From Bifidobacterium stellenboschense (GTDB lineage Bacteria; Actinomycetota; Actinomycetes; Actinomycetales; Bifidobacteriaceae), in assembly GCF_000741785.1 (NCBI RefSeq), contig NZ_JGZP01000011.1, positions 90,585 through 154,584 on the forward strand: DNA of 64,000 nt. The letters are read 5' to 3'. Below are positions 32,444 to 61,949 of the stretch, piece by piece. Below the pieces are notes generated by a model. The model had not been told where the DNA came from and did not search any database. It saw only the letters and a list, made by a program, of their open reading frames with translations. The first letter of the stretch is position 1, and every line of letters begins with the position of its first letter. The position numbers and the translations under genes are program-made.

Positions 32444-33388
32444 ATGTTGGCTCTCCCCTCATCCCGCCCGCAGCGGGTGACCGACGGCGAGGACACGCGA
32501 CGGCTCGCACGCTACGTGCTGTCCGGCTCACGCACGAGGCCGGTGCTCGTCGTCACCGCGCGGGGGAACGCGCACGACGCGTGGAACGACGTCGAGGCGA
32601 TCGCGGCGCTGACGGGCGGCGCGTTGGACGTCGTGCTGCTCGACGGAGCCGGCAGGACCGTCGATGGCGCGGACGAGACGTTCAACGCGGCTCTGGCCGC
32701 GGACGGCCACGGCACACCCGGCGTCTACAACGGGGCGGCGCGGCTCTACCCCGCGCCGCCGGCGGCGACGACGCTCTACTATCTGGACACCGCGGCGCAT
32801 CGCGGCCGGCTGATCGCCGACCTGCTGCGGCGCGACGACGATGCCGCCACCGGACCGTCCGCCGCGCCGTCCGAAGACGCCGTCCGACGGTTCGTCGAAC
32901 GGTCCGACGAGACGCGCTCCTACGATCTGGAGGAACTGCGCAGACGGCATCCGGCGCATGTGATCCGCACGAAGGCGGAGGCGCGCGAACTCGCCGACCT
33001 GCTGCTGTCGCCGGAACGCCGCAAACCGGTCGTCGTGGTGTCGCGGTCGGCGGGATCACGCCGGACGTGCGTGGACGTCGACCTCATCTCGACCATGCTG
33101 CACGGGCTCGCCGCGACCGTGATGCTCGACTCGAACGAGGCGATCTCCGAGTTCAAACGCCACGTCGCGCAACCGGCGTGGGTGTTCGGCGACGCGGGAC
33201 GCGTGTTCCCCGCCGACGCCTCGTGGAACGACCCGAAGGCGCGGATGCGGCTGTTCCTGCCGAACGAGCACGTTTCGCGCATGCTGCTGACGAACATCAT
33301 GATCAAGGACGCGCTGCTGCTGGTCGCCGACGGCCTGCGCGAGAGGATCTCCGAGAACCGCGTGGACCACACGAATCGCACGGAGTGA
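32444..33388 (+). CDS. Two-domain protein of unknown function at the head of the accessory locus
   Basis: The 314-residue product is made of two similar halves. Half one has RPVLVVTARGNAHDAWNDVEAI and VYNGAARLYP. Half two has KPVVVVSRSAGSRRTCVDVDLI and VFGDAGRVFPAD. So a ~100-residue domain with a [RK]PVxVVS/T strand, a DVD/DVE motif and a GxAGRVxP end is duplicated. I recall similar modules in actinobacterial hypothetical proteins but know no function. GAGGAAGGA lies 7 bases before the ATG at 32444, and the frame upstream is not coding-like. It has no membrane segment. It is followed after 200 bases by the zinc-ribbon gene that starts the long operon. Confidence 0.7.
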   Translation: MLALPSSRPQRVTDGEDTRRLARYVLSGSRTRPVLVVTARGNAHDAWNDVEAIAALTGGALDVVLLDGAGRTVDGADETFNAALAADGHGTPGVYNGAARLYPAPPAATTLYYLDTAAHRGRLIADLLRRDDDAATGPSAAPSEDAVRRFVERSDETRSYDLEELRRRHPAHVIRTKAEARELADLLLSPERRKPVVVVSRSAGSRRTCVDVDLISTMLHGLAATVMLDSNEAISEFKRHVAQPAWVFGDAGRVFPADASWNDPKARMRLFLPNEHVSRMLLTNIMIKDALLLVADGLRERISENRVDHTNRTE

Positions 33389-33589
33389 ACCGCCCGCACG
33401 AATCGTACGTCCCACGCAAGTCGTACCGCACCGCCGCGACCCGGCGGTGATACGATGAGAACTGTTTTCGAGGCACTCGCCTCCCCTCTTTTTCAATGTC
33501 GAAACCATTGCGCCCGAAACCATGCGGCAGTCGCCCGACGTACGACGACCGTGCGATGTTCGGGCCGGACGGAGGGAAACCATCATGCC

Positions 33590-33739
33590 ATGTACACCTA
33601 TTACAAGCCCGGCGAATACGGCGCGGACAGCAGCATGGTGCGCGACTGCCCCAGCTGCGGCGCACGCTGCTACAGCAGCTACTCGCTCAACAGCCACACG
33701 AACACCGCCGCCTGCCCGTACTGCGGCCGCGAGTTCTGA
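33590..33739 (+). CDS. Small zinc-ribbon protein
   Basis: This is a 49-residue protein with one C2-C2-type ribbon: RDCPSCGARCYSSYSLNSH then TAACPYCGREF at the very C-terminus. It is too small for other domains. GGAGGG lies 13 bases before this ATG. A closer ATG at 33585 is in another frame, but only the 33590 frame encodes the cysteine pairs. It begins the tight rightward operon; the next gene starts 40 bases later. It may be an adaptor or a structural module shared by the system. Confidence 0.7.
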   Translation: MYTYYKPGEYGADSSMVRDCPSCGARCYSSYSLNSHTNTAACPYCGREF

Positions 33740-33779
33740 CGCGTCGCGATACCGCCGATTCCAAGGGGAAGGCCATCGG

Positions 33780-34079
33780 ATGGAGGATTTGTTCATCGTA
33801 CTCGCGGTCATCGTTCTGGTGCTCGTCGTCATCTACTATCTGGTGGTCTTCCTCATCAAGATCCTGCCGATGATGCTGACGGTCATCGGCGTCCTCACCG
33901 CCGTCGCATTGGGGACGATGCTCGTCATCGGACTCGTCAAAGGCGCGTACGGCGGCATCGTCGGCTACTACGAGACGCTGCGCGACGTGTACGGCAAAGG
34001 CAGGGGGCTCGCCATCGGGCTCGCCGTCACCGCGTTCTGGATCGCGCTCGGCGCACTCGCCGTGGCGCTCGCCGTGTGA
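33780..34079 (+). CDS. Small membrane protein
   Basis: The 99-residue product has two long hydrophobic stretches (residues about 3-45, probably two helices: LFIVLAVIVLVLVVIYYLVVF and ILPMMLTVIGVLTAVALGTMLVI) and a third at the C-terminus (GLAIGLAVTAFWIALGALAVALAV). A short polar loop with YYETLRDVYGKGRG lies between. AAGGGGAAGG precedes the ATG. It recalls no family. Its position between a zinc ribbon and a membrane-associated GTPase suggests a membrane partner. Confidence 0.7.
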   Translation: MEDLFIVLAVIVLVLVVIYYLVVFLIKILPMMLTVIGVLTAVALGTMLVIGLVKGAYGGIVGYYETLRDVYGKGRGLAIGLAVTAFWIALGALAVALAV

Positions 34080-34121
34080 TGCGACGGCGCCGCCGTATCG
34101 ACGCATCATCGGGAAAGGCTC

Positions 34122-36332
34122 ATGCATATGGGGAAGAAGAAGGGGACCACGAAGCCCGCGAGACCGCCGAAGCCGCGCAGACCCGACGACCCGGCGAAGG
34201 TCTCGTACCTGTTCGGCCCGGGTTTCGCCGACATTTCGCGGGTCATCAGGTCCACTACGGACAAGGCGCGCACGAACATCGACGATATGACGCGCGCCGC
34301 TGTCGAAGTGTCCGAGGGCACGACGTTCGACAGCATGATCGTACGCGCCGGATGGACGGCCTGCCGGTACGTGTACTGGCTGGCGTGCTGTCTCGGCATG
34401 GTGGTCACGAGCGTCATCTACTGCGTCGGCATGCTGCTGCCGCAGACCATCGCCTTCCTGTGCTACGAGCTCGTCGGATCGGCATTATGCGCGGCCACAT
34501 GGCTGACCGACACGCTCTTCCTCGCCATCCTGCGCATCTCCAACGTCTGCGACTACTGCCACAAACGGTTCGCCCGCCCCGTCTACCAGTGCCCGAACTG
34601 TGGCGCCAAGCACCGCGACCTGTTCCCCGGACGCTACGGCATCCTCCACCACACCTGCCGATGCGGCCAGAGACTGCCGTCAAGCATCCTCGACCGCCGC
34701 AAACCGCGCCGCAAGCTCACCGCCCTGTGCCCGTACTGCCTCGCCGCCGGTCATGACGAGATCATCCGCTCCGCCGGCAGCCGCACCATCTGCATCCCCG
34801 TGGTGGGCGGCGCCTCAAGCGGCAAGACCTCGCTCATCAACGCGTACGCCGTGTCACTGATCACGCGCCGCGCCGGCGAGCATGGCCTCACCACGCGCTT
34901 CTACGACGAGGCGCGCAAGCAGCGGTTCGCCACGATGGTGGCCGACAGCGAGCGCGGCTTCGTCGACAAGACCGCCGTCGAGACCGACGGGCAACGCGCC
35001 AGCGCGTTCTCGATGAGCTTCTATCTCGACGGGGGCGGTCTCAGACCGTCGCGTCTCGTGCAGCTGCTCGACATCGCCGGCGAGACGTTCGTCCGCGGCG
35101 ACGAGAACGAACAGCAGAACCAGTATGCGCACTGCGAGGGCATCGTGCTGGTCATCGACCCTCTGGCCATTCCCCAGGTGAAGGCCCGCGTCGCATCCGG
35201 CCTGCGCGGCACGGACGCCGGCTCGATCAGCGCCTCCCCGCTCGGCGACGTGATGAACGCGCTGCGCAACGACATCGACGCGAATCTGGCGAGGAACCGC
35301 GGCAAACGTCTGACGACGCCGTTGGCCGTCGTCATCAACAAGGTCGACGCGGCGCCGCTCCTCGACGAGCGTCTCGACGCGCCCGCGATCGCACGGTTCC
35401 GTCAGGCGGAGCCGGAGCGATGCGCGAACGACCTCGACACGATGGATTTCCTGTGCCGCCAGTTCCTCGTCGACATGGACATGGGCGACGTGGTCGACAT
35501 GATCCAGCAGCAGTTCGCCGTCTCCCGGTTCTTCGCGGCGAGCGCCATCGGGCACACGGCCGGCGAGGGACGGTTCATGCCGCGCGGCGTGGACGACGTC
35601 ATCGATTGGATCGTCTCGCTCAGCGACCCCGCCCTCGCCAAGGCGCTCGCCATCCACGAGTTCCCGAAGACGAAGTTGCCGGTGTTCACGCCCGGCATCG
35701 GACGGTTCGAGGGCATCCCCGCCGAGGCGGCGCAGCGCGAACGCGACCGCATCGCGCAGGAACAGGCCAAGGCGGACAGGGAACGCGCCAAGCGGGAACG
35801 CAAGGCCCCGCAGGGGCATGCCGGTGCGGCGACGACATCCCCGGTACCTGCACCTGTTCCATTCACCCGGCCGGGTCCTGCGCCGGTTCCGCCCCCCACG
35901 CCCATTCCCTCGGCACCGGAACCCGTATCGAGGCCCGCGCACCCCGCCGTCGTGCCGACTCCCCCACCGCAGCCGGCACGACGGCAACAGGCGAGTCCCG
36001 TGCCGATGCCACAGGCACAACCGATACAACCTGCGCAGCAGCCCGCCCCTCAGCCAGCACGACGGAGCTTCAGACCGCAACGTACCCGCCCCTACCACCG
36101 GGCGGGTACCGGAGCGACGCCCTCCCAGGGCATCCCCGCCCCGAACGAGCCGCTTCCCGCGAACGGCGCTCGATCCGGCACCGACCGGCGAGACGCGCAA
36201 CCCAAGGTGCCGCGGCCGGCCATGCCGCAGGAACCCGCCCCGTGGACGGGCCAACCGTCCGTTCCGTCGCCCAGACCGCGTCGGACACGGCCCCGGCGCA
36301 CCGGCAACGACCATGACAACCCGCACCAATAG
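34122..36332 (+). CDS. Membrane-associated zinc-ribbon P-loop GTPase with Pro-rich tail
   Basis: The 736-residue protein has a basic start and two or three TM helices (about residues 77-145, e.g. LACCLGMVVTSVIYCVGMLL). A zinc ribbon (CDYCHKRF, YQCPNCGAKH, then TCRCGQ and CPYCLAAG) precedes a GTPase domain. P-loop GGASSGKTS is near residue 229, G3 is DIAGE, followed by GIVLVIDP, and G4 is NKVD. An active NTPase fold is therefore likely. The last ~190 residues are charged, then Pro/Gln-rich. It resembles the 'double-GTPase' proteins predicted in GTPase-centred conflict systems, and a second such GTPase is encoded at 44506. It is in the operon 42 bases after the small membrane protein gene. Confidence 0.75.
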   Translation: MHMGKKKGTTKPARPPKPRRPDDPAKVSYLFGPGFADISRVIRSTTDKARTNIDDMTRAAVEVSEGTTFDSMIVRAGWTACRYVYWLACCLGMVVTSVIYCVGMLLPQTIAFLCYELVGSALCAATWLTDTLFLAILRISNVCDYCHKRFARPVYQCPNCGAKHRDLFPGRYGILHHTCRCGQRLPSSILDRRKPRRKLTALCPYCLAAGHDEIIRSAGSRTICIPVVGGASSGKTSLINAYAVSLITRRAGEHGLTTRFYDEARKQRFATMVADSERGFVDKTAVETDGQRASAFSMSFYLDGGGLRPSRLVQLLDIAGETFVRGDENEQQNQYAHCEGIVLVIDPLAIPQVKARVASGLRGTDAGSISASPLGDVMNALRNDIDANLARNRGKRLTTPLAVVINKVDAAPLLDERLDAPAIARFRQAEPERCANDLDTMDFLCRQFLVDMDMGDVVDMIQQQFAVSRFFAASAIGHTAGEGRFMPRGVDDVIDWIVSLSDPALAKALAIHEFPKTKLPVFTPGIGRFEGIPAEAAQRERDRIAQEQAKADRERAKRERKAPQGHAGAATTSPVPAPVPFTRPGPAPVPPPTPIPSAPEPVSRPAHPAVVPTPPPQPARRQQASPVPMPQAQPIQPAQQPAPQPARRSFRPQRTRPYHRAGTGATPSQGIPAPNEPLPANGARSGTDRRDAQPKVPRPAMPQEPAPWTGQPSVPSPRPRRTRPRRTGNDHDNPHQ

Positions 36333-36362
36333 ACGACCACACCAAACCGAAAGGAATCCATC

Positions 36363-37355
36363 ATGCTCGGATCCAAGCTTCCACAGCCCGTTCCCCCGGA
36401 CGGACCGCAGGCATCGGCCGTTCCGGCAACGGCCGATGCACAGCCCGCACTGCCGGTCTCCCCCGTCGTGTCCGAGACGGCCCCCGCTATCCCACCGGCC
36501 CAACCCACCGAAACGGTTGCGACTCCTCAGCCCGCGCCGGTCGAGCCGACGGAGCCAACGCCCGAACGAGAACCCGAACCATCCGAATCAGCGGCCGAAC
36601 CCACCGAGGCCCCCGTCCAATCAGAGATTCCCGCCCCGTCCGGTGAGTCGGGAGTCCCCGTCTCACCGGCACCGACCGTTCCCGATTGGACTGACCGCTT
36701 CGATGGTCTGGACGGGCGGCTGGCCGACGCCGACGCCCGTCTCGACGCGTTCGACGCCCGCTTCGAAGCGCTGGGCAAGCGCCTCGACGGATTGCGTGAA
36801 TCGTTGGACGGACTCTCAGAGGCGTTCTCGAAGCGGTCGCAATACGACGAGGCCAAGGAGAAGGTCATCGACCGCCAGCATGCGGAACTCAACAAGCTGC
36901 GCGACGGACTGACCCTCGATCTGAGGGAGCCGGTGCTGCAGGACATCGCCTCGGCGCTCGCCAAGATCAACACGATGAAGGGCGAGCTTCCCGAAGACGA
37001 CGCCGAGGCGCAAAGCATGCTGGAGGACATCGACTACATGCTCGGCGCGATCCTCGACGACTACGACGTGGCGCGCGTCGACAGCGAACCGGGTTCCCGC
37101 TACAACGCGGCCCGCCAGAGGTTCCTTCCGAAGGACGTCGAAACCACCGACGACCCCGCCAAGGCACGCACCATCGCACGTTCCAAGGCACCCGGCTACG
37201 TCTACGAGGCCGGCGAGCGCCCGCGCGTGCTCCTCAAGGAGCAGGTGGTGATGTACAAGGTCGTCAAACCGGCGCCACCGGCCGAAACTCCGGACGGACC
37301 CGCCGACGCTCCCGCGGCCCCCGAAACCCCTGACACCCCGTCGTCGATCGGCTGA
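36363..37355 (+). CDS. GrpE-like nucleotide exchange factor for the adjacent Hsp70s
   Basis: GrpE speeds ADP release from DnaK. The 330-residue product has a ~110-residue Pro/Glu-rich front, then a long helical region (LDGRLADADARLDAFDARFEALGKRL and KEKVIDRQHAELNKLRDGL), the GrpE-like middle REPVLQDIASALAKINTM, and a beta head ending in GYVYEAGERPRVLLKEQVVMYKV. This mirrors the family's GYxxxxRVLRPAxVxV close. The sequence is far from housekeeping GrpE, so the call rests on layout, this end motif, and its place directly before two Hsp70 genes. The C-terminal 30 residues are Pro-rich. Confidence 0.6.
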   Translation: MLGSKLPQPVPPDGPQASAVPATADAQPALPVSPVVSETAPAIPPAQPTETVATPQPAPVEPTEPTPEREPEPSESAAEPTEAPVQSEIPAPSGESGVPVSPAPTVPDWTDRFDGLDGRLADADARLDAFDARFEALGKRLDGLRESLDGLSEAFSKRSQYDEAKEKVIDRQHAELNKLRDGLTLDLREPVLQDIASALAKINTMKGELPEDDAEAQSMLEDIDYMLGAILDDYDVARVDSEPGSRYNAARQRFLPKDVETTDDPAKARTIARSKAPGYVYEAGERPRVLLKEQVVMYKVVKPAPPAETPDGPADAPAAPETPDTPSSIG

Positions 37356-37478
37356 CCCGCCGAACACCGTCCGCCCGAATCCCGACATCCGGAATCCGCG
37401 TGGACGGCGCATATATACGTGCAGCGTCGCTGCGACATACCACGCATAACCGCACAACACCATAAGGAGAACGACATC

Positions 37479-39137
37479 ATGTCGAAATACGTGTATGGCA
37501 TCGATCTGGGCACGACCTACTCGTGCATCGCCTATCAGGAGGGCGACCGCCCGACCGTGCTCAAGAATCTGGACAACAACTCGGACACCACGCCTTCGGT
37601 GGTCCAGTGGGGCGAGGACGGCACCGTGATCGTCGGCCAGGAGGCCAAGGACACCTCCGTGCTCGAGGAATCCGCAGGCCGGACCGTATCCTTCGTCAAG
37701 CGGCTCATCGGCAAATCGCAGGTCGCCACCACCATCGACGGACGGCAGATCTCCCCCGTCGAGGTCTCCGCCTACATCCTGCGCGAGCTCGTCCGCCAAG
37801 CCCAACAGCAGACCGACGACGAGGTCAAGGACGTCGTCATCACCTGCCCCGCCTACTTCGGCGATACCGAACGCACCGCCACCAAGCAGGCGGGCGAGAT
37901 GGCCGGGCTCAACGTACTGTCCATCATCGAGGAGCCGACCGCCGCCGCCATCTGCTACGGCGTCACCAAGGCCGACTCCAACAGGAACGTGCTCATCTAC
38001 GATCTGGGCGGCGGCACGTTCGACATCACCGTACTCAAGATCACCAACGGCGAGATCCGCGTGATCACCACCGAAGGCGACCATGATCTGGGCGGCAAGA
38101 ATTGGGACGACGCGCTTTCCACGCTCATGGTCGACAAGTTCCTCGACGAGAGCGGCTACACGGGCGACCCGTTCGACGAGGACGGCAACGAGGAGTTCAT
38201 GCAGCAGCTGATGATCGAGTCGGAGAAGACCAAGCAGGCGCTGTCGAACAGGACCAGCGTCAAGAAGCTCCTGGACTACAACGGACAGCGCGCGAAGATC
38301 GAAGTGACGCGCGACGAGTTCGACGACATCACCAGCGAGCTGCTCGAACGCACCAAGGACCTCACGCAGAAGGCGATCGACGAGGCCAAGGCGCAGGGCG
38401 TCGCCATCGACGAGATCCTGCTCGTCGGCGGTTCGACGATGATGCCTCAGGTACAGAACATGGTGGGGAACACGTTCGGCGTGCCGTTCAAGATCTTCGA
38501 ACCGCATGAGGCGGTCGCCAAGGGCGCGGCGATCTACGCGATCATCCAGGCCACCAAACAGAGCGAGGTCAACAGCACCGAGGTCAAGGAGCAGGATGCC
38601 GAAGGCAACGACGTGGCCCGCGACACCACGACCGGCGAGACGCGCATGCTGCCGACCATCGGCGGCGGCTCCACGCTGCCCACCAACCTCAACGCCGACA
38701 CGAAGGTCATCTCCGTCTCCACGAAGAGCTTCGGCATCAAGGCGAACGACAGCCAGACCGGCGAGCCGCGCATCTTCAACATCGTGAAGAAGGACGACGA
38801 GCTGCCCGCGCACGCCTCCCAGCGGTTCGCCACCGTCGACGCCAACCAGGAGCAGGTGCTCATCGAACTGTTCGAATCCCCGGAGAAGGCCGACGACCTG
38901 CCGGTCGACGCGAGCAGCAGAATCGGCGATTGCGAGATGAATCTGCCCGCCGGCCTGCCCGCGCACACCCCGCTGGAGATCACGCTGGCCGTGCAGGAGG
39001 ACGGCACCATCTCCCTCCACGGCCAGACGCTCGACAACGGCACCAACATCGACACCGTGTTCAAGTCGGAGAACGTGCTGAGCAAGGAGGAGATCGAGGA
39101 AGCCAGGAAGCGCGTCTCCACCGGACTCGTGTTCTGA
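37479..39137 (+). CDS. Hsp70 (DnaK-like) chaperone
   Basis: This ATP-driven chaperone has 552 residues, shorter than DnaK's ~620. The ATPase domain is complete: phosphate-1 GIDLGTTYSC, VITCPAYF, EEPTAAAICYG, phosphate-2 YDLGGGTFDIT, and LVGGSTMMPQV. The substrate-binding half has a recognisable SFGIKA start and beta-sandwich (LPTNLNADTKVISVSTKSFG..., LPAGLPAHTPLEITLAVQEDGTISL), but the helical lid is almost absent, with only SKEEIEEARKRV at the end. AAGGAGA lies 7 bases before the ATG. A TATATA at 37412-37417 in the 123-base gap ahead could be an internal promoter. It is one of two Hsp70s in this locus. Confidence 0.9.
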   Translation: MSKYVYGIDLGTTYSCIAYQEGDRPTVLKNLDNNSDTTPSVVQWGEDGTVIVGQEAKDTSVLEESAGRTVSFVKRLIGKSQVATTIDGRQISPVEVSAYILRELVRQAQQQTDDEVKDVVITCPAYFGDTERTATKQAGEMAGLNVLSIIEEPTAAAICYGVTKADSNRNVLIYDLGGGTFDITVLKITNGEIRVITTEGDHDLGGKNWDDALSTLMVDKFLDESGYTGDPFDEDGNEEFMQQLMIESEKTKQALSNRTSVKKLLDYNGQRAKIEVTRDEFDDITSELLERTKDLTQKAIDEAKAQGVAIDEILLVGGSTMMPQVQNMVGNTFGVPFKIFEPHEAVAKGAAIYAIIQATKQSEVNSTEVKEQDAEGNDVARDTTTGETRMLPTIGGGSTLPTNLNADTKVISVSTKSFGIKANDSQTGEPRIFNIVKKDDELPAHASQRFATVDANQEQVLIELFESPEKADDLPVDASSRIGDCEMNLPAGLPAHTPLEITLAVQEDGTISLHGQTLDNGTNIDTVFKSENVLSKEEIEEARKRVSTGLVF

Positions 39138-39169
39138 CATTCATCACGGCGAAGGAACGGAATCGCAAC

Positions 39170-41314
39170 ATGGGCATCAGGGTCGGCATCGACTTGGGGA
39201 CCACGTATTCGGCGGTGGCGCGCATCGACCCGGCGACGGGCCGGGCGACCATCATCCCAAACAGGTACGGGCATGCCGTCACGCCTTCGGTCGTGGCGGT
39301 CACGGAGGACGGCGAGGAGTTGTTCGGCGAGGACGCCAAGGAGCGTCAGGAGCTGGGCGAGACCGGCACCGCGTCGTTCTTCAAACGGGTCATGGGCGAC
39401 CCCGGATTCAGGCTCGACCTGCCCGGGCGTCCATGCACGCCGGTCGACCTGTCGGCCATGCTGCTCAAAGGCCTCGTCGGCCAGGCCGAGATGATGTCCG
39501 GTGAGCACGTCGACGCTGCGGTCGTCACCGTGCCCGCCTACTTCCGCAACGCGGAACGCGAGGCGACCCTGGCCGCGGCACGCCGGGCGGGCATCACGGT
39601 GCTCGGCCTGCTCAACGAGCCGACCGCCGCCGCCTTCGCCTATGGCCTGGGCGGGTCGAGCGCGAACCGGACGATCCTCGTCTACGATCTGGGCGGCGGC
39701 ACGTTCGACGTGACGCTCGCCCGGGTGGATGCCGGCGAGATCCGCATCCTCGGCTCGGACGGCGACCATTATCTCGGCGGGAAGGACTGGGACGACGACG
39801 TGGCAACGTGGATCGCCGACCGGTTCGAGGACGAGTTCGGCGAGGATCCGCTGGACGACACCGAACAGGCCGACATCATCGGCGTGACGGCCGAGAAGAC
39901 GAAGAAGCGCCTCACCAACGCCACGTCTGCCCCGGTGAGCGTGGCATGGCACGGACATCGAGGACGCTATACGCTCACCCGACGCGAGTTCGATGAGCTG
40001 ACCTCCTACCGGCTCATGCGCACCGCCGACATCATCGACCGTCTGTTCGCGAGCTTCACGCCGGCCAGACGGTGGAGCGACGTGGACGGCGTGATTCTCG
40101 TGGGCGGTTCGACGCGCATGCCCCAAGTGCACGAATACGTCGAACGCATGACCGGCAAACCGCCGCTGGCCGGCGTGAACGTCGACGAGGCGGTGGCGCT
40201 CGGCGCGGCGATCCGCGCCAACCAGGATGCCTCCGGCAATGCGACGCCGCCCACCATCGGCGGCACCAAGGCCCGGAACCAGGCGCTGCCGCTCATCGGC
40301 GGCAGGAAGATCACCGACGCGACGTCGCACGCGCTCGGCATGATCGCCGAATCCGAGGACCGCGAACGCTACGTCAACGACATCCTCATCGCGAAGAACG
40401 CCGCCATCCCCGCGCGCAACACGCAACGTCGCGAACTGGCCGTGCCGAGGCGCGGCGGCGAGCTCGACGTCTACCTGCTGCAGGGTTCGGAGCCGGCGCC
40501 GCTCGACAACGACGTGGCGGGACTGTACGCGTTCACCGGCATCCCGTATGTGGATGGAGGCCGCACGCTCATCGACGTGACGTACCGCTATGACGCCGAC
40601 GGCGTGATCAAGGTATCCGCCACGCAGGTCGAGACCGGACGGAAGCTCCACATGGAACGCAGACCCCTCCCCGATGACATGAGCTGGCTGGAACGCAGCC
40701 CGAAGAAGAACGACAGGCAGGCGCCGCCCGCGGGCGCCGTGTATCTCGCAATCGACTTCTCGGGCAGCATGTGCGGGAATCCCTTCCGCCAGGCGATGGA
40801 TGCCTGCCGGGATTTCATCGCCTCCATCGATGTGGCGGCGCTCAACGTCGGCCTCATCGGCTTCGCCGACAGGACCAAGACCTATCTCGAACCCACGGAT
40901 GATGGCGGAGCCATCCGGCAGGGCATACGCGACCTCGCCGCCGGATTCGACGCCGAGGAACTGTCCTTCGGGAACGATGCCTCCCCGTTCCCCGACGTCC
41001 TCGCCGGGGGACTGGACCGATACGACGGGCCGAAGTACGCCATCGTCCTCACCGACGGCGTCTGGTACGACCAGGACACGGCGATCCGACAGGCGCGGCA
41101 ATGCAACGAGGCGGGGATCGACACCATCGGATTGGGATTCGGCGGCGCCGACGAAACCTTCATCGACGCCATCTCCTCGATGAAGGACCTCGCCCGGCTC
41201 ACCGATCTGAGGCATCTGGGCGACAGCTTCTCGAACATCGCACGCGTCATCGGCGGCTCCACCGGCCTCGTCTCGGGCTCGTCCGGCACCGCCATCGGCC
41301 ATTCCGGAAGGTGA
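39170..41314 (+). CDS. Hsp70 fused to a von Willebrand factor A domain
   Basis: The 714-residue protein starts with a full Hsp70 ATPase domain (GIDLGTTYSAVA, VTVPAYFRNAERE, NEPTAAAFAYG, YDLGGGTFDVT, VGGSTRMPQVHEYV) and a beta substrate-binding part (MIAESEDRERYVNDILI, PLDNDVAGLYAFTGIPY). In place of the lid, a vWA domain begins near residue 523: MIDAS AIDFSGSMCG, then VGLIGFAD and AIVLTDGVW with a conserved Asp. vWA domains bind ligands through a metal, so this Hsp70 may dock a partner directly. It is 32 bases after the first Hsp70 gene, with GAAGGAA ahead of the ATG. Confidence 0.9.
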   Translation: MGIRVGIDLGTTYSAVARIDPATGRATIIPNRYGHAVTPSVVAVTEDGEELFGEDAKERQELGETGTASFFKRVMGDPGFRLDLPGRPCTPVDLSAMLLKGLVGQAEMMSGEHVDAAVVTVPAYFRNAEREATLAAARRAGITVLGLLNEPTAAAFAYGLGGSSANRTILVYDLGGGTFDVTLARVDAGEIRILGSDGDHYLGGKDWDDDVATWIADRFEDEFGEDPLDDTEQADIIGVTAEKTKKRLTNATSAPVSVAWHGHRGRYTLTRREFDELTSYRLMRTADIIDRLFASFTPARRWSDVDGVILVGGSTRMPQVHEYVERMTGKPPLAGVNVDEAVALGAAIRANQDASGNATPPTIGGTKARNQALPLIGGRKITDATSHALGMIAESEDRERYVNDILIAKNAAIPARNTQRRELAVPRRGGELDVYLLQGSEPAPLDNDVAGLYAFTGIPYVDGGRTLIDVTYRYDADGVIKVSATQVETGRKLHMERRPLPDDMSWLERSPKKNDRQAPPAGAVYLAIDFSGSMCGNPFRQAMDACRDFIASIDVAALNVGLIGFADRTKTYLEPTDDGGAIRQGIRDLAAGFDAEELSFGNDASPFPDVLAGGLDRYDGPKYAIVLTDGVWYDQDTAIRQARQCNEAGIDTIGLGFGGADETFIDAISSMKDLARLTDLRHLGDSFSNIARVIGGSTGLVSGSSGTAIGHSGR

Positions 41315-41320
41315 TTCGAC

Positions 41321-51503: not shown

Positions 51504-51508
51504 TGAGT

Positions 51509-53713: not shown

Positions 53714-53993
53714 GTCGGTTCCTCCCGTCGCCGACGCATGCCGGCCGTAGTCGTCCCGCATGCGTCCATGCATGCGTCTTCGAGAAGGGGATGGCGACTG
53801 CCATGAATGATTCCGATGATACCGCCTTTCGTCTCCGTTTGCGGCATCGACGCGACATGTCCCATGTCGAACACGGAACGAACGGCCTCATGGTGCTAGG
53901 GTGAAAGATACGTTCCGGCCATTCGGCCCCTCCTTTTTCCCTGGCACCGCGACGTCGCGGCGGCCGCATCACCCATCGGCGAAGGAGAGCATC

Positions 53994-54500: not shown

Positions 54501-54535
54501 TTCCGTACATCGACCGCCAGGGAAAGGAAGACACC

Positions 54536-55777
54536 ATGGTCGATCTCAGCCTGTTCAACGACACAAGCAGCGCTCCGGTCACACGATTCGGAGGCCCGTT
54601 CGACGACAACGACATGACCAAAGGGGTGTATAACCTACTGTCCGCAGCACCGGGAATCATCTTTTATTCGCAGGCGCCGGCGGAGCAATTGCTCACCACG
54701 CTCGACGGCATATTCCCGGACCTCAACTTCAAATCTTCAAGACACTCCGACTCCGGCTGCCTGAACACGGATATGACCGGCGAACTCGCCGGCGAACTAT
54801 TGTACTGGAGTCTCTTCGAGGGCCCGCAGGGTTCCGCCATGATGTGCATCGCAGCCGGAGGCGAAGCGACGAAGTTGCTGCGCGTCGAATGTCTGCATGA
54901 AACGCTGATATGGTCGAAACGACATCCGGATTTCGCCATCGTCAACGCCCTGTTCGACAACGGCGTCGCAACCGTGGGAGCGGCCGCGGCGATCGGCATG
55001 GGCAGCGTGGTGGCGCCATGGTACGTGCCAGGTTTCGAACGTACGCATGAACCCACGACTCATAACGATTCGGCGAAGGACGGCTATGATCTGGGACTGA
55101 TGTCGCCGGAGCTCGTCCGTGAACTGACTTCATGGCGACAAGTCGGCTACGACATGTACCAGAAACCATACAACGCCGAGGGATTCGGCGACGTCAACCT
55201 GTTCGTAATCGGCGGCGTCGAACACGACGCCCCCGGCCCGAAACTCCTGTTCCCCCTCGATACCATGACGGAGCAGGAACTGACGGCCACGTGGAGCGGT
55301 GTGGAACGGTTCGGCCCATGCCGACCGTATCTGTTTTCCGGCATCGGAACGGTGATGTGCGATCTCGATCCACAGGCGACGGCGGAGCTGGTGGATGAAC
55401 GAGCCCGTGAGCTGTTGGACACCGTCCACCGATGGCTGCACCGCAATGACGGCGGCAACGACGACGCCACATCGGCGTCTCCCGTATCGACCGCATCGAC
55501 ATCCCAATCGGCATCCTCATCCGATTCCCACTCGCGTCGCCTGCATGACGCGCTCAAGGCGCGTCTCGACGCGACGCTGGGTCGTTCGCCGGCGAGCGCG
55601 GCGACCACGCCGAGCGCGAGCCCTGCCGCCGCCCCCGTTCCCATGCCATCGGCCCCATCCGCCCCGTCACCCGCCGCAGCCATGCCGCAGACCGGCAGAC
55701 GGTTCTGCACGAGCTGCGGCGCGCAGCTGCCGCCGAACGCGAAGTTCTGCGGCCAATGCGGCACGAAGGTCCGCTGA
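54536..55777 (+). CDS. Zinc-ribbon-tagged protein, paralogue of 52604-53713
   Basis: The 413 residues have a soluble N-terminal region (GVYNLLSAAPGIIFYSQAPAEQLLTTL, LLYWSLFEGPQGSAMMCIA), the shared centre SVVAPWYVPGFE, a ~110-residue Ser/Ala/Pro linker and a C-terminal zinc ribbon (FCTSCGAQLPPNAKFCGQCGTKVR). Its relation to the leftward gene at 52604-53713 suggests duplication with inversion around the YbjN-like gene. GGAAAGGAAG lies just before the ATG. It ends 25 bases before the convergent tubulin-like gene. No catalytic motif is seen. Confidence 0.7.
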   Translation: MVDLSLFNDTSSAPVTRFGGPFDDNDMTKGVYNLLSAAPGIIFYSQAPAEQLLTTLDGIFPDLNFKSSRHSDSGCLNTDMTGELAGELLYWSLFEGPQGSAMMCIAAGGEATKLLRVECLHETLIWSKRHPDFAIVNALFDNGVATVGAAAAIGMGSVVAPWYVPGFERTHEPTTHNDSAKDGYDLGLMSPELVRELTSWRQVGYDMYQKPYNAEGFGDVNLFVIGGVEHDAPGPKLLFPLDTMTEQELTATWSGVERFGPCRPYLFSGIGTVMCDLDPQATAELVDERARELLDTVHRWLHRNDGGNDDATSASPVSTASTSQSASSSDSHSRRLHDALKARLDATLGRSPASAATTPSASPAAAPVPMPSAPSAPSPAAAMPQTGRRFCTSCGAQLPPNAKFCGQCGTKVR

Positions 55778-55802
55778 GCCGGCCCATCCGCGGGAACCGG
55801 AC

Positions 55803-57659
55803 TCAGACGGCGACCGGCATGAACCGTGTGACACGGAGGCGGTCGGGCATGGAATCGACGCGGATGGTGACGCCCGGCATCGTGGCGGCGAGCTGTCGCG
55901 TAGTTTCCATGAGCGCCGGGTCGCCGGCCGGCAAGGTGACGACCGTCCGCCATCGCGCTTCGGAACCGACGCCGCGACCGTCATCGTCGCCGGAATCCTC
56001 CGCGACATCCACCGTGGCCTGTTCCATCAGCCCATGCAGGAGGTCGTCCGCCGCATCCTCGGCGGGACGGCTCTCCCATCCGTCGCCGGCGAGCAGATCC
56101 GTCACGGCCAAACCGACGATTCCGGGGAAACGGTTCCTCGCGAACCGGCAGAAGCGCCGGTACACCGTCAGTTCGTCGATGCTCGGCTTGCCCTCGTCGT
56201 CGCCTTCACCCCGGGCGAGCGCCCACAGCAGGTCGTGGGCGACGGCGGCATCGTCGACCGGCGTGCCGGCGACGATGCGTCGGGCCGCATCGTACGGCCA
56301 CGTCGAATCGAGTGTCCCTCTCTTGTCCAGGACCTCGGACCATTCGTGGACGTTCTTCCGATACTCCTTGAACGTCTGGGAAAGCTCACCCGCCGCCCCA
56401 AGGAACATGTCGGCGTCTCCGGGCAGCCGGACCTCGGGGAGAACGAAATCGCCGAGCTCTCCGAGATGGATGACCGTGGCCTCGCGATCCGGGCGATGGT
56501 CGGGGTCGATGCCGATCGTCTTCTGGAACCGCCGGTATTCCTCGGCGGGCATGCCCTTCCCCTCGCTCAGATCGTCCAACATGGCGACCGGCCGTTCCAG
56601 CAGATCCGAGAGCATCATCGAATACGGCAGCATCACGTCGGCGACCGTCATCACGTCCACGGCCGGATCATCGGCGCCCGCGTCGCTTCCGCCGCCGTCA
56701 TCCCGTATCAGCATGTCGATCAGGCAATCCGCCAGACGATCGTACGGCGCAGAGGGACGGAGCACCCGGCTCCATTCGTCGACGCCGCTCCGCACGACCA
56801 GATGGCACCGGTCGAACGGAGGCATCGTCGTATCCACGGCCAGCGAACCGCCTTCGGAGTACGCCTGCCGCCACGCCGTGTGACGGCCATCGTCGCGCAT
56901 GCGGTCGAGCATCTCCCACAGCGTCCGCTCCGCATCGACCCGGCACGCTCCCGCCTCGTGAAGATGCCTCACATCGGGCTCGTGCACGAGCAGGAACCCG
57001 TGCGATTCCACCCGCGGATACGCCTCCAGAGCCTTGCGGACCAGATGGCAGGCGTCCATCAGCACGCCCGAGCCGGTGCCCTCGTCGAGCCCGGCGACCA
57101 CGATCACCCTGATCGGCGTCGAGGCGTCGAGACCACGCATCGCCGAGGCGACGACCCGTTGCACATGCCGCACGAACCCCTCGGCCGCGAGAATCATGAG
57201 GAACCGGCCCATCCGACGGCTCCCGTCGGTGGACTCGTACGACAGACCGTCCAACCGGGCCGCCATGTCATCGAAGTCAAGCCAATCCCGGAACCGTGGG
57301 TCACGTTCGTAACGGGCGCGGTCATCGCGGAACCACTCGGGGAAGTACTCGCTGATCCCGATGTCCAAGTATTCGCTCCCCTCCGGGTCATCGGTGTCAT
57401 ATTCGCGCAAGGCCATGGGCGAGCTTGCACCGCCCTGCATGAACCAGTCGGCGGTGACGGCGAGGAACCGCGTGCGGTCGAACGGACCCGGAGAGCGGAA
57501 CCGCAGGAACATCTCCCGTTTGAGCGAACGCAACGCCCAGGTGCCCGCGTCCCCCAATCCGATGGCCAACGTCACGGAATCGTCGTGAACGTATTTCATC
57601 GTCCCGTCGAAAACGTCGAACACGCCTCCGCCGGACACATCCAGCGAGTCGAACGTCAT
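55803..57659 (-). CDS. Tubulin-like GTPase
   Basis: The 618-residue product matches the tubulin-like (Tubulin_2-type) family of bacteria: an N-terminal nucleotide motif AIGLGDAGTWALRSLKREM near residue 34, then IRVIVVAGLDEGTGSGVLMDACHLVRKAL near 190-215, with the GTGSG loop that binds GTP in tubulin/FtsZ. The remaining ~400 residues are helical and acidic, typical of this family but not of FtsZ. GGAAAGGAG is 9 bases before the ATG. Such proteins occur in actinobacteria beside vWA, Hsp70 or GTPase genes. Polymerisation is not shown by sequence. Confidence 0.75.
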   Translation of the reverse strand: MTFDSLDVSGGGVFDVFDGTMKYVHDDSVTLAIGLGDAGTWALRSLKREMFLRFRSPGPFDRTRFLAVTADWFMQGGASSPMALREYDTDDPEGSEYLDIGISEYFPEWFRDDRARYERDPRFRDWLDFDDMAARLDGLSYESTDGSRRMGRFLMILAAEGFVRHVQRVVASAMRGLDASTPIRVIVVAGLDEGTGSGVLMDACHLVRKALEAYPRVESHGFLLVHEPDVRHLHEAGACRVDAERTLWEMLDRMRDDGRHTAWRQAYSEGGSLAVDTTMPPFDRCHLVVRSGVDEWSRVLRPSAPYDRLADCLIDMLIRDDGGGSDAGADDPAVDVMTVADVMLPYSMMLSDLLERPVAMLDDLSEGKGMPAEEYRRFQKTIGIDPDHRPDREATVIHLGELGDFVLPEVRLPGDADMFLGAAGELSQTFKEYRKNVHEWSEVLDKRGTLDSTWPYDAARRIVAGTPVDDAAVAHDLLWALARGEGDDEGKPSIDELTVYRRFCRFARNRFPGIVGLAVTDLLAGDGWESRPAEDAADDLLHGLMEQATVDVAEDSGDDDGRGVGSEARWRTVVTLPAGDPALMETTRQLAATMPGVTIRVDSMPDRLRVTRFMPVAV

Positions 57660-57828
57660 TATCGCGGCTCCTTTCCGATCCCCGCGTCGCTCCGACGGCG
57701 GACCACTTGACGCAACGTGGCATACCGTGGCGCGACGTGCGTCATCGCAAGAAAACGGAGCGGCCCATTGGCCGGAAACACGCCAATCGTACCATCGTCC
57801 GGACCATGTGCGAACGCCCGCAGCCGCC

Positions 57829-57834
57829 TATACT
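57829..57834 (+). promoter_or_regulatory. -10 element before the 57872 gene
   Basis: TATACT lies about 37 bases ahead of the GTG start. No good -35 is seen at 17 bases. It would begin transcription of the three-gene zinc-ribbon set 57872-61949. Confidence 0.35.
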
Positions 57835-57871
57835 GGAATCCAGAGGAAAACTCGCGGAGGAGGGCGGATTC

Positions 57872-59155
57872 GTGATCTGTTCGAGATGTGGGGCGACGAT
57901 CGCAGCGGGCAACCGGTTCTGCACGGAGTGCGGCCAGCCGACGCAGCCGGTCGGCACGGACGCGGACGCCACGGTGGTCGACGGCGCGCGGAACCACTAC
58001 GTGCCCGCTCCATCGCCGACGGCGTCCACCGTCCCGAACGGGGACCGGTACGTCTATCCCGCGCCGCAGCCGGCCATGTCGCCGTCGCCGACGACCTTGT
58101 CGCAGCCGCAATCCTCGCAGCCGATCCGTCCGCCGATGCCGGCGGCGACCGTCGCGAAGCAGCCGTGGAGCAACGGCCAGAAGATGCTCGTCGCGATCGG
58201 TGCCGCCGTCGCCGCGATCCTGCTCGCCGTCGGCGTCGTCTTCGGCGTGTCGATGTACCGCGATGCCCATTCGTCGCCGGTGTCCACCGCGTCGTCCTCG
58301 TCGGACGGGACCGGCAGTACGTCCGGTTCCGGCTCCGGCTCCGGCGGGACGACGGACGCCTCGTGCGACTCCACGCCGGACATGCAGGTCGTGTCGGTGG
58401 AGCGCTCCGGCAACGACCTCGTCGTGACGATCCTCGTCACCTCCACGTGTTCGGACGGCTCGTCCACGCGCTTCGACGATCCGAAGGCGCGCATCACGCT
58501 CAAGGACGCCAGCGGCGAGACGATGGCGGACAACACGTTCGACTTCTCCGGCAAGCGCGCCCGCACGGTCACCGCGAGCGGCTCGAAGGTGAAGGTCACG
58601 TACACGCCGGACATGTGCAAGCGTTCCGTGACGGACATCGTCGACGAGGCGAACGACGACCCGTCCCTGCTCATCATCCGCTACATCTACCGCAACCGCG
58701 GCGGCGACTCGGACGATTCCGGCGACTCGACCGCCAACGACGCGGACACCGCGCCCTCCTCCACGTTGAAACGCTACGAGAACGCGGCGGGCCGCTACGC
58801 GATCAGCGTGCCGGACAACTTCCGCAAGACCGGCACCACGTCCGACGGCACCGGGTTCACGTTCGCCGGTTCGGGCGTGACGATCACCACGTGGCGCTCC
58901 GCCAACACGACCGGCTCCGCGGCGGGCGAGATGGCGCGGCTGGAGGCGGACGCAGGCGTACCGATCACCTACGACCTCAACGCGGACCCGTCGATCTACG
59001 TGAGCTACTACAAGGGCGGCTACGTGTACTACATCAAGGAGATCGTCTACGCGGACCACATCATCGGCGTGCAGCTCAAATACTCCGACGAGCATCGCGA
59101 CGTGCGCGACCCGTTGACCGAGAAGATCCCGCCCACGCTCGAGGATCTCGGCTGA
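57872..59155 (+). CDS. Zinc-ribbon membrane protein, paralogue of 30771-32066
   Basis: A GTG start was chosen: GGAGGAGG lies a few bases before it and the protein then starts directly with the ribbon ICSRCGATIAAGNRFCTECG. The 427 residues continue with a Pro/Thr linker, one TM near residue 112 (MLVAIGAAVAAILLAVGVVFGVSMY) and a Ser/Gly-rich stalk. The shared block PDMQVVSVERSGNDLVVTILVT (an Ig-like DUF4352-type fold) follows, with TFDFSG and a C-terminal domain (YAISVPDNFRKTGTTSDGTGFTF, YYIKEIVYADHIIGVQL). The C-terminal domain differs from that of the paralogue. Confidence 0.75.
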   Translation: MICSRCGATIAAGNRFCTECGQPTQPVGTDADATVVDGARNHYVPAPSPTASTVPNGDRYVYPAPQPAMSPSPTTLSQPQSSQPIRPPMPAATVAKQPWSNGQKMLVAIGAAVAAILLAVGVVFGVSMYRDAHSSPVSTASSSSDGTGSTSGSGSGSGGTTDASCDSTPDMQVVSVERSGNDLVVTILVTSTCSDGSSTRFDDPKARITLKDASGETMADNTFDFSGKRARTVTASGSKVKVTYTPDMCKRSVTDIVDEANDDPSLLIIRYIYRNRGGDSDDSGDSTANDADTAPSSTLKRYENAAGRYAISVPDNFRKTGTTSDGTGFTFAGSGVTITTWRSANTTGSAAGEMARLEADAGVPITYDLNADPSIYVSYYKGGYVYYIKEIVYADHIIGVQLKYSDEHRDVRDPLTEKIPPTLEDLG

Positions 59156-59234
59156 GATCTCGTATCCCGACCGGCCTGATGCGCGACATATCCGTTCCGA
59201 CAGTACATCCCGGAGCATCCACGACGAAGGAGGA

Positions 59235-59900
59235 ATGATGACGGACGATGACGGCAAGCCGGTGCGCGGCGTCAACACCATCCGCGAGGAGCTCGACAAG
59301 GCGCGTGGCGAGAACACGTACAAAAGCGCGTTCGCCGCGCTCGGCGCGGCCATCGTGGGCACGGTGCTGTCATACGTGGGATACGAGTATGCGAACACGG
59401 TCTACGTGTGGCTGTGGATCGGAACCGGCGCCGCATGGCTCGCCGGTATCGGCATGCTCGTCTTCGGCAAAAGCATGGAGGACGACCGCCACAAGAAGAT
59501 CGCCGAACTCGAAGCGGAACTCGCCAAGGCGACCGCGGCGCGCGACGGGGACCGCTCGCGATCGAACGGTCCTGCCACTGCCGAAACGCCGTCTCCGGCT
59601 GGGCCGAAGTCCACCTCCACGGCATCGCCGATACGACCTCCCGCACCGGTACCGCTGCCGGAACCTGCCGCATCCCCACGTGCGGACGCCGCTCCGGCGC
59701 CTCTGCCGGGCTGGACGCCGCAGGCCGCACGGACGAAGACCGCACCGTTGCCGCCCTCCACGCCCACCACGCCCACCGCCGCGACGCACGGCCCGTCGCC
59801 GACGACCCCAGCGCATGATCGCAAATTCTGCGGCCAATGCGGCGCGCAACTGCAACACGACATGACGTTCTGCACGCGGTGCGGCGCACGCGTCGCCTGA
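59235..59900 (+). CDS. Membrane protein with C-terminal zinc ribbon
   Basis: The 221 residues hold two TM helices at about 28-75 (SAFAALGAAIVGTVLSYVGY and YVWLWIGTGAAWLAGIGMLVF), a short coiled coil (DDRHKKIAELEAELAKATAAR), a Pro/Thr/Ala linker and a final ribbon (FCGQCGAQLQHDMTFCTRCGARVA). AAGGAGGA precedes two consecutive ATG codons; the second, at 59238, has the better spacing. It is followed after 27 bases by another ribbon-tagged membrane protein. The function is unknown. Confidence 0.7.
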   Translation: MMTDDDGKPVRGVNTIREELDKARGENTYKSAFAALGAAIVGTVLSYVGYEYANTVYVWLWIGTGAAWLAGIGMLVFGKSMEDDRHKKIAELEAELAKATAARDGDRSRSNGPATAETPSPAGPKSTSTASPIRPPAPVPLPEPAASPRADAAPAPLPGWTPQAARTKTAPLPPSTPTTPTAATHGPSPTTPAHDRKFCGQCGAQLQHDMTFCTRCGARVA

Positions 59901-59927
59901 TCGACGCGAACAGCAAAGGAGTTCATC

Positions 59928-61949
59928 ATGAATGACAGCGGCAGCACCGCCCTCGGCGTGCTCATCTTCGTCGGACTCTTCGCCATCTGCCTCGTATGGG
60001 AGATCCTGAAACGCAAGGCGAACACCGCGTTGAACCGCAACGTGTTCAGCCGCGGCACCTATCAGGAGCAGCAGGCGTTGATCGAACACAGGTTCACCTA
60101 CCCGTGCCAGGCCAAGTGGAGCGACGTCAAGCCGCTGCTGAAGGAGTCCCCGCTCGGCGACAATCTGCAGGTCGCGAAGGAGACCGACGACGGCGTCCAA
60201 TGGATCTACTACGCGTTCCACCTGCGCACCACCGGCAATGGCGAGTTCACCGCGTACCTCCAGATCGACGAGCAGGCGCAGCGCGCCACGTTCGAATTCA
60301 TCCGATGGGCGAACGTGGACGGCGTGGTCCGTCACATCGACCAGATGAAACAGCTCAAGACATGGGTCCAGGATGTCATCGAACAGGCGAACCGCAACCA
60401 GACCACGCAACCCACGCAGACCGCACAGACCGCGACACAACCAACTCGCCCGGTTCCATCCCCGCAACCACCACAACCGTCTCCGCAGTCCGCGCAACCC
60501 GACACGCATGCGGTGCCGCTGCCGTCGCAGGGGCCCGTCGTGCGGATCCATCTGTCGGTGCCGACACGGACGCCCGCGACCGCCAAGGCGCCCGACGCGA
60601 CGACCGGCGAGACGTCCAACGAAACATCCACCGGTCCGGCGGCATCCGCTGTACAGCCGGCGGCCCCGACATCGGCCGACGCGGATCAGGCATCGCCGAC
60701 GACGCCGGCATCCGAGACGGATACCGCCTCCGCACTCGCCGAAAACCACATGAAACCGACGAAACCGTTCACGCCACAGGAATGGACCATCGGCGAATGG
60801 CATCCGCTGCTGCCGATGTTCCAGCAGCGTTGGAAGTACGCGGCATTCGTTCCCCCGGTGATCGGACTCATCGGCGTGCTCTATTTCGGATTCAAACCAT
60901 CCGGCTCCTACGCCGGGTACACGGCCGGATCGATCATCCTGCCGGACAGGTACACGGATTACGGCACCGGATCCATACTCGAGGAGTACGGGTACATGTC
61001 CGCCGACCAGTTGAACGGTATTCTTGCGGACCTGCGCGCCGAGAACATGCACGGGTTCATCGGATGGATCGTGTTCACGCTGGCCATGCTGGCCTTGGTC
61101 GCCGTACTGTCGATGGCCTACGACGCCAGTTCACGCAGCATAGCGACGTTGCTGTCCAACGACGACGACATGTACCGGTTCTTCCGCGACCGGTATGAGT
61201 CGGAACACGGCAAATACACGCCGACGTTCCAGGACGAGGCGCTGAACCTGCCGCTCACCATCGCCGACTACTCGTACGAATGGCTGCTGCGGCCCGGCAT
61301 GCTCAGCGCGAATCGGGACGCCCCGATCACGGAGGACTATAAGGCCGCCGTCTACCAGCAGTCACGCACCTTCCTCGGCAGACTGTACCTGCTGTACAAC
61401 GATCTGTGGTTCGACGCGGGGACGACCACGGCGAAACGCCTGTTCGGCGCGCTCGGCGGCAATGCGACGCCCGCGGCGACCACGGCGCCGACGTGGCAGA
61501 CCATGACGGCGCAGGCGCGGTCCGAAAACACGACCATGCAACCCAGGAAGACTCCCGCGGCATCCGCCGCGCCGGCCACGTCTGCCACACCCGCCGCACC
61601 CGCGAATCCCGAGGCATCCGCGAATCCTGCCGCATCCCCGGCGGTCCCTGCCTCTCCAGTGCCTGCATCCGCACCCCTGCCCGCACCAGCCCCCGCATCC
61701 GTACCCATGCGTGTGCCAGCTCCCGTATCCGCCGCCGCGCCTGACAATGCGACTTCGAGCACGTCCGGGAACACGACACCGTTCACGCCGCAATCGCAGA
61801 TGCCGCCCGTCCCCCTGCCTCAACCCGCAGCTGCACCCGTTCCGAAGTCAACCACGTCACGCGATTACAAATTCTGCGGTCAGTGCGGCGCGAAGCTGAA
61901 GCGGGAGATGGCGTTCTGTACCCAGTGCGGCGCGAAATGCGTCCGATAA
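59928..61949 (+). CDS. Large membrane protein with C-terminal zinc ribbon
   Basis: The 673 residues start with a TM (STALGVLIFVGLFAICLVWEIL) and a ~120-residue soluble domain (FTYPCQAKWSDVKPLLKESPLG, VQWIYYAFHLRTTGNGEFTAYLQID). A Thr/Pro/Ala linker and two more TM helices near residues 306-325 and 380-400 follow. A cytoplasmic part is next (SNDDDMYRFFRDRYESEHGKYTPTFQDEAL), then a long Ala/Pro-rich low-complexity stretch and the terminal ribbon (FCGQCGAKLKREMAFCTQCGAKCVR). AAAGGAG is 7 bases before the ATG. It ends the rightward zinc-ribbon set. Confidence 0.7.
   Translation: MNDSGSTALGVLIFVGLFAICLVWEILKRKANTALNRNVFSRGTYQEQQALIEHRFTYPCQAKWSDVKPLLKESPLGDNLQVAKETDDGVQWIYYAFHLRTTGNGEFTAYLQIDEQAQRATFEFIRWANVDGVVRHIDQMKQLKTWVQDVIEQANRNQTTQPTQTAQTATQPTRPVPSPQPPQPSPQSAQPDTHAVPLPSQGPVVRIHLSVPTRTPATAKAPDATTGETSNETSTGPAASAVQPAAPTSADADQASPTTPASETDTASALAENHMKPTKPFTPQEWTIGEWHPLLPMFQQRWKYAAFVPPVIGLIGVLYFGFKPSGSYAGYTAGSIILPDRYTDYGTGSILEEYGYMSADQLNGILADLRAENMHGFIGWIVFTLAMLALVAVLSMAYDASSRSIATLLSNDDDMYRFFRDRYESEHGKYTPTFQDEALNLPLTIADYSYEWLLRPGMLSANRDAPITEDYKAAVYQQSRTFLGRLYLLYNDLWFDAGTTTAKRLFGALGGNATPAATTAPTWQTMTAQARSENTTMQPRKTPAASAAPATSATPAAPANPEASANPAASPAVPASPVPASAPLPAPAPASVPMRVPAPVSAAAPDNATSSTSGNTTPFTPQSQMPPVPLPQPAAAPVPKSTTSRDYKFCGQCGAKLKREMAFCTQCGAKCVR

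Follow-up and report, generated by a model that had tools for sequence, protein, structure and literature searches.

The question raised by positions 32444..61949 of a 64,000-nucleotide stretch of Bifidobacterium stellenboschense DNA (contig NZ_JGZP01000011.1; the whole stretch is referred to here as the window) is whether the genes encoded there, which include two Hsp70s, two GTPases, a GAP1-like protein, a tubulin-like protein and a series of zinc-ribbon proteins, belong to one system. A first-pass annotation had read the whole 30 kb as a single system, in a combination that it did not know as described. Neither reading was supported. Judged by sequence, genes C to J, with K and L, form a core that is an HSP70-theme GAP1-N2 DO-GTPase system of the type set out by Kaur et al. 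2020 (PMC7159879), whose passages on this theme already describe the combination of DO-GTPases, GAP1-N2, an FNIII protein, HSP70 and GrpE. The 30 kb did not behave as one unit, as relatives of the core occur without Tubulin_2 or genes M to T, and genes resident at the site occur without the island.

Genes A to T were defined from open reading frame (ORF) and codon-position analysis (Table 1). Genes B to L are 11 co-directional genes on the + strand (33590-51503) separated by 2-123 nt, in agreement with the tight same-strand row that had been annotated, and Pfam confirmed two Hsp70s, two GTPases and a GAP1-like protein in this operon, although the second GTPase scored below the cut-off. D was matched to DO-GTPase2 (PF19993, 1.3e-8) and has a Walker A motif at residue 229, transmembrane (TM) segments at 87-128 and CxxC pairs at 143/157/203. 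I matched the same family at 0.0019, has Walker A at 122 and CxxC pairs at 24/87/99, and shares 49-54% identity with its relatives. The pair of ribbon DO-GTPases, one with an N-terminal TM region, that is characteristic of the HSP70 theme was thus found, as was a GAP1 with an N2-type domain: J matched GAP1-N2 (8.7e-13) and GAP1-M (4.7e-6), and GAP1-N2 was matched once in the whole genome. Of the small membrane protein C and the membrane protein K, C has a weak relative at the same position in B. tissieri and K a weak match there (4.5e-5).

The HSP70 and GrpE components of the theme were represented by F, G and E. F matched the Hsp70 family (PF00012, 1.7e-101) with intact nucleotide motifs and aligned to DnaK strongly over residues 5-356 and weakly over 431-541 (13.8 bits); its length of 552 codons suggests that there is no room for a C-terminal lid. 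G matched PF00012 at 1.9e-98 and aligned to DnaK over residues 4-491, after which comes a vWA domain (VWA, 6.7e-11 at residues 523-679); its relatives comprised 33 Hsp70-vWA proteins, and DxSxS was present in 32. G did not correspond to the second HSP70 without a peptide-binding domain that marks a subset of HSP70-theme systems. E alone had no GrpE match in Pfam. In an alignment of E with its homologues, 13 of 18 members matched PF01025 and the profile built from it found GrpE in the PDB at 7.8e-10, so E, which had been left unnamed, is a GrpE-family protein.

The FNIII component is H, in which Pfam detected a double zinc ribbon and fn3 (6.1e-6); fn3 was matched in nine of the 13 members of its alignment (A2). 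An fn3 gene is also found in the PFNA cluster of bifidobacteria. That species-specific cluster is a different gene cluster (PMC6803598). L is 31.5% identical to the N-terminus of H over 317 amino acids, continues into Sel1 repeats (2.1e-26) and matched the H genes of the relatives, the Sel1-bearing L itself being seen in the window only. No DnaJ match was obtained among 13 H homologues at E<=1. An HPD-like triplet was absent from the first 400 open-frame residues of 36 of 41 H-type proteins and lay at scattered places in the other five; in the loop between helices II and III, where J-domain proteins have HPD, H reads NNPREG, and L has no HPD there either. A 125-residue model of the H N-terminus reached a predicted local distance difference test (pLDDT) score of 85, and J domains made up 16 of the 50 structural matches listed, with low Z scores and with unrelated folds scoring equally. 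Three DnaJ genes above the cut-off are encoded elsewhere in the genome, outside the set.

GAP1-N2 was found in four of 161 genomes of the family: that of the window, B. tissieri DSM 100201 (G051), B. criceti Ham19E (G053) and Pseudoscardovia radai DSM 24742 (G006). A search for a conserved neighbourhood, which had been named as a check on the one-system claim, showed the core genes together in the order D-E-F-(G)-H-I-J in all three relatives, G being absent from P. radai. Relatives of M to T were not found in 60 kb around each of the three loci, barring a short match of the S ribbon to the H gene of P. radai, and Tubulin_2 had no match in these three genomes. The one-unit claim therefore stood for the GTPase-GAP1-Hsp70 genes and not for those beyond the core. 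In a survey of the class, 50 of 394 genomes matched GAP1-N2. Among the 54 regions read (these 50, the window's own and the three from the family), 24 had a full Hsp70 (over 500 bits) and 21 had both Hsp70 and GrpE no more than about 20 kb from GAP1-N2; in 11 of the 17 such regions outside the family, the genes run GrpE-Hsp70-FN3-GTPase-GAP1-GTPase. A tubulin gene lay on the same contig within about 11 kb in five regions, and both themes were present in two, the window and G536. Tubulin_2 was matched somewhere in 12 of 53 GAP1-N2 genomes, in seven of these on another contig or far away. These counts are lower bounds, since several regions are truncated at the end of a contig and at least one relative (G007, with GAP1-M only) escapes the GAP1-N2 profile.

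The observations on the core cover which genes it contains, their order and conservation, the intactness of the nucleotide-binding motifs and the change of partner genes from one species to another. What the core does is proposed tentatively, with a confidence that falls just short of even: C to J, with K and L, would act as a switch in which membrane-linked GTPases make a private Hsp70/GrpE machine work on a partner that varies, probably as a measure against invaders. D, the GTPase with TM segments, would pair with the soluble I, both binding the GAP1 protein J, and a membrane signal would change the GTP state of D and I. The GTPases would bring F and G to a client by way of H, the FN3 scaffold, and of L, the paralogue of H; GrpE (E) would reset both Hsp70s, and the vWA domain of G, taking the place of the usual closing lid, would keep hold of the client. 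Since the set yielded no J-protein with an HPD motif, the GTPase and scaffold side would stand in for the usual J-protein trigger.

Candidate partners lie at the ends of the relatives' operons. Their first gene belongs to one family (40-46% identity) with NERD similarity at 22.4 bits in B. criceti (cut-off 22.1) and, below the cut-off, at 19.6 in P. radai and 17.5 in B. tissieri; DxD and DVK residues are identical in all three, and FtsK_SpoIIIE similarity, just below the cut-off (3.7e-5), was seen in B. criceti only. B. tissieri additionally has an Mrr-type nuclease gene (Mrr_cat, 1.6e-14; 2426-3295 of the region read) two genes downstream of GAP1. The likeliest client in the relatives would be the NERD/FtsK-like protein or, in B. 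tissieri, the Mrr-type protein, a nuclease that would be kept silent or assembled by the chaperone and then released; in the window the candidates would be K, L or the tubulin-like protein. The combination of a constant core with partner genes that change is in keeping with the pattern behind the conflict functions predicted for the GAP1-N2 class in PMC7159879, where GAP1 and double-GTPase families do occur together in predicted conflict systems, as the first-pass annotation had it. Patchy presence in the family and an island-free site in another Bifidobacterium (G558) also favour the conflict reading.

Several observations weigh against it. A NERD/FtsK-like or Mrr-type gene was not recognised in the window, where B and A lie upstream; gene A stands where the relatives' operons have the NERD gene and, since A is a site resident, the window operon may simply have an empty partner slot. 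No PADLOC model matched the core beyond weak matches to E, F and I, and a literature search reaching few subscription papers found no experimental study of a GAP1-N2 system. Nor do the structural matches of the H N-terminus establish a J-like fold. In three genomes of the survey (G514, G401, G537) the six-gene core lay among ordinary-looking genes with no evident effector (by eye, no family search), so that a housekeeping role would fit as well. These three loci, the hydrophobic segments in C, D and K and the ribbon-TM neighbours speak for an envelope role, with the GTPases sensing membrane or cell-wall damage, the private Hsp70s tending membrane or exported proteins and no invader involved. 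The nuclease-like genes at the ends of the relatives' operons, the rarity in the family (4/161) and the varying partner genes speak against that role, which is considered rather unlikely. The loci of B. tissieri, B. criceti and P. radai, all of them compact and each with a gene for a nuclease-like partner, make the class accessible to experiment.

Table 1. Genes of the locus and the stretch missing from the island-free site, in window coordinates
Feature	Position	Strand	Description
A	32444..33388	+	314 amino acids; partial PADLOC HEC-07 similarity; site resident
B	33590..33739	+	49-amino-acid zinc-ribbon microprotein; two CxxC
C	33780..34079	+	Small membrane protein; three hydrophobic segments
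D	34122..36332	+	Membrane DO-GTPase; N-terminal TM segments and zinc ribbons
E	36363..37355	+	GrpE-family exchange factor; long N-terminal extension
F	37479..39137	+	Short Hsp70, 552 codons
G	39170..41314	+	Hsp70 (ATPase, beta-type substrate region) with a fused vWA domain
H	41321..44455	+	Scaffold: helical N-terminus without HPD, double zinc ribbon, FN3 domains
I	44461..45702	+	Second GTPase, N-terminal zinc ribbons; start may be 44506
J	45739..48645	+	GAP1 (GAP1-N2, GAP1-M)
K	48648..49571	+	Membrane protein; five hydrophobic segments
L	49647..51503	+	Paralogue of H N-terminus, fused to Sel1 repeats
M	51532..52572	-	Membrane protein; no Pfam match
N	52604..53773	-	C-terminal zinc ribbon; paralogue of P
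O	53994..54500	+	About 168 amino acids; no Pfam match
P	54536..55777	+	C-terminal zinc ribbon; PF13240 1.1e-8
Q	55803..57659	-	Divergent short tubulin-like protein; Tubulin_2
R	57872..59155	+	Zinc ribbon, TM, outer domain; GTG start; paralogue of 30771-32198
S	59235..59900	+	TM and C-terminal ribbon; site resident
T	59928..61949	+	TM and C-terminal ribbon; site resident
A-to-S stretch	33389..59234	.	25.8 kb; missing at matching place in G558

The extent of the locus was assessed from the site in G558. There the left-flank helicase gene is followed by a pair of small genes and then by A, a T-like gene that is shorter than T, another small ORF, an S-like gene and gene U. This site lacks the 25.8 kb that separate A from S in the window and has its S- and T-like genes in a different order; relatives of the core were not found in 40 kb of this genome, which is outside the 161 searched for GAP1-N2. 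The occurrence of A, S-like and T-like genes and U together without the island marks A, S, T and U as residents of the site. A was matched in 12 of 189 family genomes including its own, over most of its length in G558, G055, G007 and G115 and over the C-terminal half in the other seven; residues 144-279 of A also matched HEC-07 (5.5e-17) in PADLOC. In G007, A accompanies S- and T-like genes, and the tubulin locus is on another contig. In G055, A occurs with an N/P-like gene and a copy of B that is 94% identical, and in G115 with an R-like gene and a ribbon gene of the N/P-like kind; GAP1-N2 was found in neither of these two, so B and the N/P-like genes also travel without Hsp70. A row of + strand genes in G115 (contig C8, 5108-11823) begins with an N/P-like ribbon gene, includes a further ribbon gene and gave no Hsp70 match. 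By eye it includes a possible AAA-type protein, and the ribbon protein there may work with another core. Contig C11 ends where the window does on the right (64000), and the locus may therefore continue.

It is about an even question whether the site is a hotspot in which separate modules (the Hsp70 core, a tubulin remnant and ribbon-TM genes) have gathered with no joint function outside the core, a reading that concerns extent and is compatible with either role proposed for the core. The G558 site, the recurrence of A, B and N/P-like genes in G055 and G115 and the strand switches among M to T argue for it, while the strong clustering of ribbon genes and a probable tubulin-Hsp70 linkage in B. 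parmae argue against it. CxxC pairs were present in B, D, H, I, N, P, R, S and T, which bears out the annotated count of at least nine ribbon products, with N, P, R, S and T as the five further ones besides the tubulin-like gene. Zn_Ribbon_1 had 17 matches genome-wide, nine of them (8 ORFs) in the window against 0.4 expected from length alone; seven of the nine (6 ORFs) fell inside 32444..61949. As several ribbon genes are mutual paralogues, part of this clustering is duplication.

Ribbon-TM proteins are also a wider habit of the genome, as shown by contig C30 (6403-16233), where four consecutive genes of about 770-850 amino acids each encode an N-terminal zinc ribbon, a TM segment and repeated outer domains and account for four further Zn_Ribbon_1 matches. 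Read by eye with no family search, these repeats look PASTA-like and the neighbouring genes resemble lysC and asd. To the left of the locus, 24119-32443 of the window has a lower GC content (61.7%), PPK2 and two more ribbon genes (26842, 30771); in G558 a relative of the 30771 gene is found on the far side of U, so rearrangement has affected this stretch too.

Q was matched to Tubulin_2 at 63.5 bits over positions 1-270 of 356 and is thus tubulin-like, as annotated. Its label as a GTPase is weakened by altered glycine-rich loops, which read LDEGTGSG and IGLGDAG in Q against LSGGTGAG, LSGGSGSG, LSGATGSG or LAGGTGSG and IGLGGTG in the five tubulins compared. Only Q itself was matched in 112 genomes of its genus, and a search of 5.8 billion proteins, in which the 7,997 candidates sharing most words were scored, returned four homologues besides itself (73-87% identity). 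The nearest non-orthologues seen were three tubulins in a GTPase/GAP1/vWA locus of G007. This locus (contig C31), with three tubulin-like genes, a ribbon GTPase, a GAP1-like protein and a vWA protein, is a tubulin-theme system within the Bifidobacteriaceae. Tubulin-theme partners of Q (its own GAP1, vWA, FNIII-HRDC) were not detected, the genome having one GAP1-N2 and M to T no such partner (Pfam, E<=0.01).

Whether Q, with O, nevertheless acts with the core, the GTPase switch controlling both chaperone and tubulin-like assembly as first proposed, was weighed against linkage in other genomes. In B. parmae, the Q homologue (P0003) and an Hsp70-vWA protein (P0010; 96% identity over the region searched) were each reported with a longest contig of 33,364 bases, and from the equal length and the name the two are probably on one contig. 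In a genus of another family, eight of 101 genomes encode a second Hsp70 whose alignment with the short Hsp70 of G536 runs on almost to the end, whereas the ordinary Hsp70 of that genus aligns only to residue 353 or so. Tubulin_2 was found in four of the eight genomes with the short Hsp70 and in none of four without it (12 of 101 genomes tested). The distance between the GrpE-Hsp70 pair and a GTPase-GAP1-FN3 set is 0.3 kb in G536, 3.1 kb in G641 and 10.1 kb in G615, with 11.4, 13.6 and 23.9 kb, respectively, between Hsp70 and tubulin matches. Additionally, both kinds of locus share a TM protein, that of the G007 tubulin locus being 62-64% identical to one beside the B. tissieri core, and O has a weak relative in that G007 locus (E 1.2e-4). 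Against a joint system, three of the four family genomes with GAP1-N2 had no Tubulin_2 match and three of the four with Tubulin_2 had no GAP1-N2 match; Q is on the opposite strand, is roughly half as long as its nearest relatives and is altered in its loops; and no GTPase was found in 20 kb around the GrpE-Hsp70 pair of G650, G588 and G620, tubulin and the pair being far apart in the last. A joint system is accordingly judged improbable. Within the one genus, the GrpE and short Hsp70 pair stands alone or near tubulin-type GAP1 systems. The annotated tubulin linkage thus has a probable counterpart in B. parmae and counterparts in the other family, and none among the three relatives in its own.

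PMC7159879 also discusses GTPases combined with tubulin homologues and HSP70, and its passages on the tubulin, HSP70 and kinase themes call them non-overlapping. The window, probably B. parmae and three genomes of another family are exceptions for tubulin and HSP70, and this gene overlap would amend the published view of mutually exclusive themes. A far-reaching version, which we regard as very doubtful, is that a lid-less Hsp70 and an Hsp70-vWA protein, gated by membrane GTPases and GAP1 through an HPD-less scaffold and free of a J-protein trigger, arm or release a changing nuclease, that the switch is coupled to tubulin in some lineages, and that the two designs are halves of one immune machine. 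If the mechanism proposed above for the core holds, Hsp70 would be a dedicated, GTP-controlled part of a bacterial conflict system rather than a helper in folding at large, and something else would have taken over from the usual control by a J-protein.

Compared with known systems, the set shares with housekeeping DnaK-DnaJ-GrpE the Hsp70 ATPase motifs and GrpE, and differs in having no lid and no HPD J-protein found in it. CoCoNuT type IV restriction systems likewise combine Hsp70-like units, GTPases and zinc ribbons in a predicted defence setting; in the passages concerned (PMC11090510) their GTPases are of the McrB (AAA+) type, whereas those of the window are DO-GTPases. Tubulin-theme GAP1-N2 systems, as outlined in PMC7159879, resemble the locus in placing Tubulin_2 near DO-GTPase, GAP1 and FN3 genes, and an O-like gene is present as in G007. 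Q differs in its length of 618 amino acids (1141-1172 in G007), its opposite strand and its glycine-rich loops, and no tubulin-theme GAP1, YtkA-vWA or HRDC-FNIII partner was seen for it. The closest likeness is to the HSP70 theme as these passages present it, with GAP1-N2, a ribbon GTPase and a TM-GTPase, an FNIII protein, HSP70, GrpE and a second HSP70. In the window, the second Hsp70 has vWA in addition to a retained beta-type substrate region, the FNIII protein has no detectable DnaJ (a DnaJ or TPR fusion being typical and not obligatory), the TM-GTPase gene is early in the operon and a tubulin gene adjoins. A vWA domain in place of the lid, a scaffold without HPD, the NERD/FtsK-like first gene of the relatives and the Hsp70/GrpE-tubulin overlap go beyond what those passages of PMC7159879 describe.

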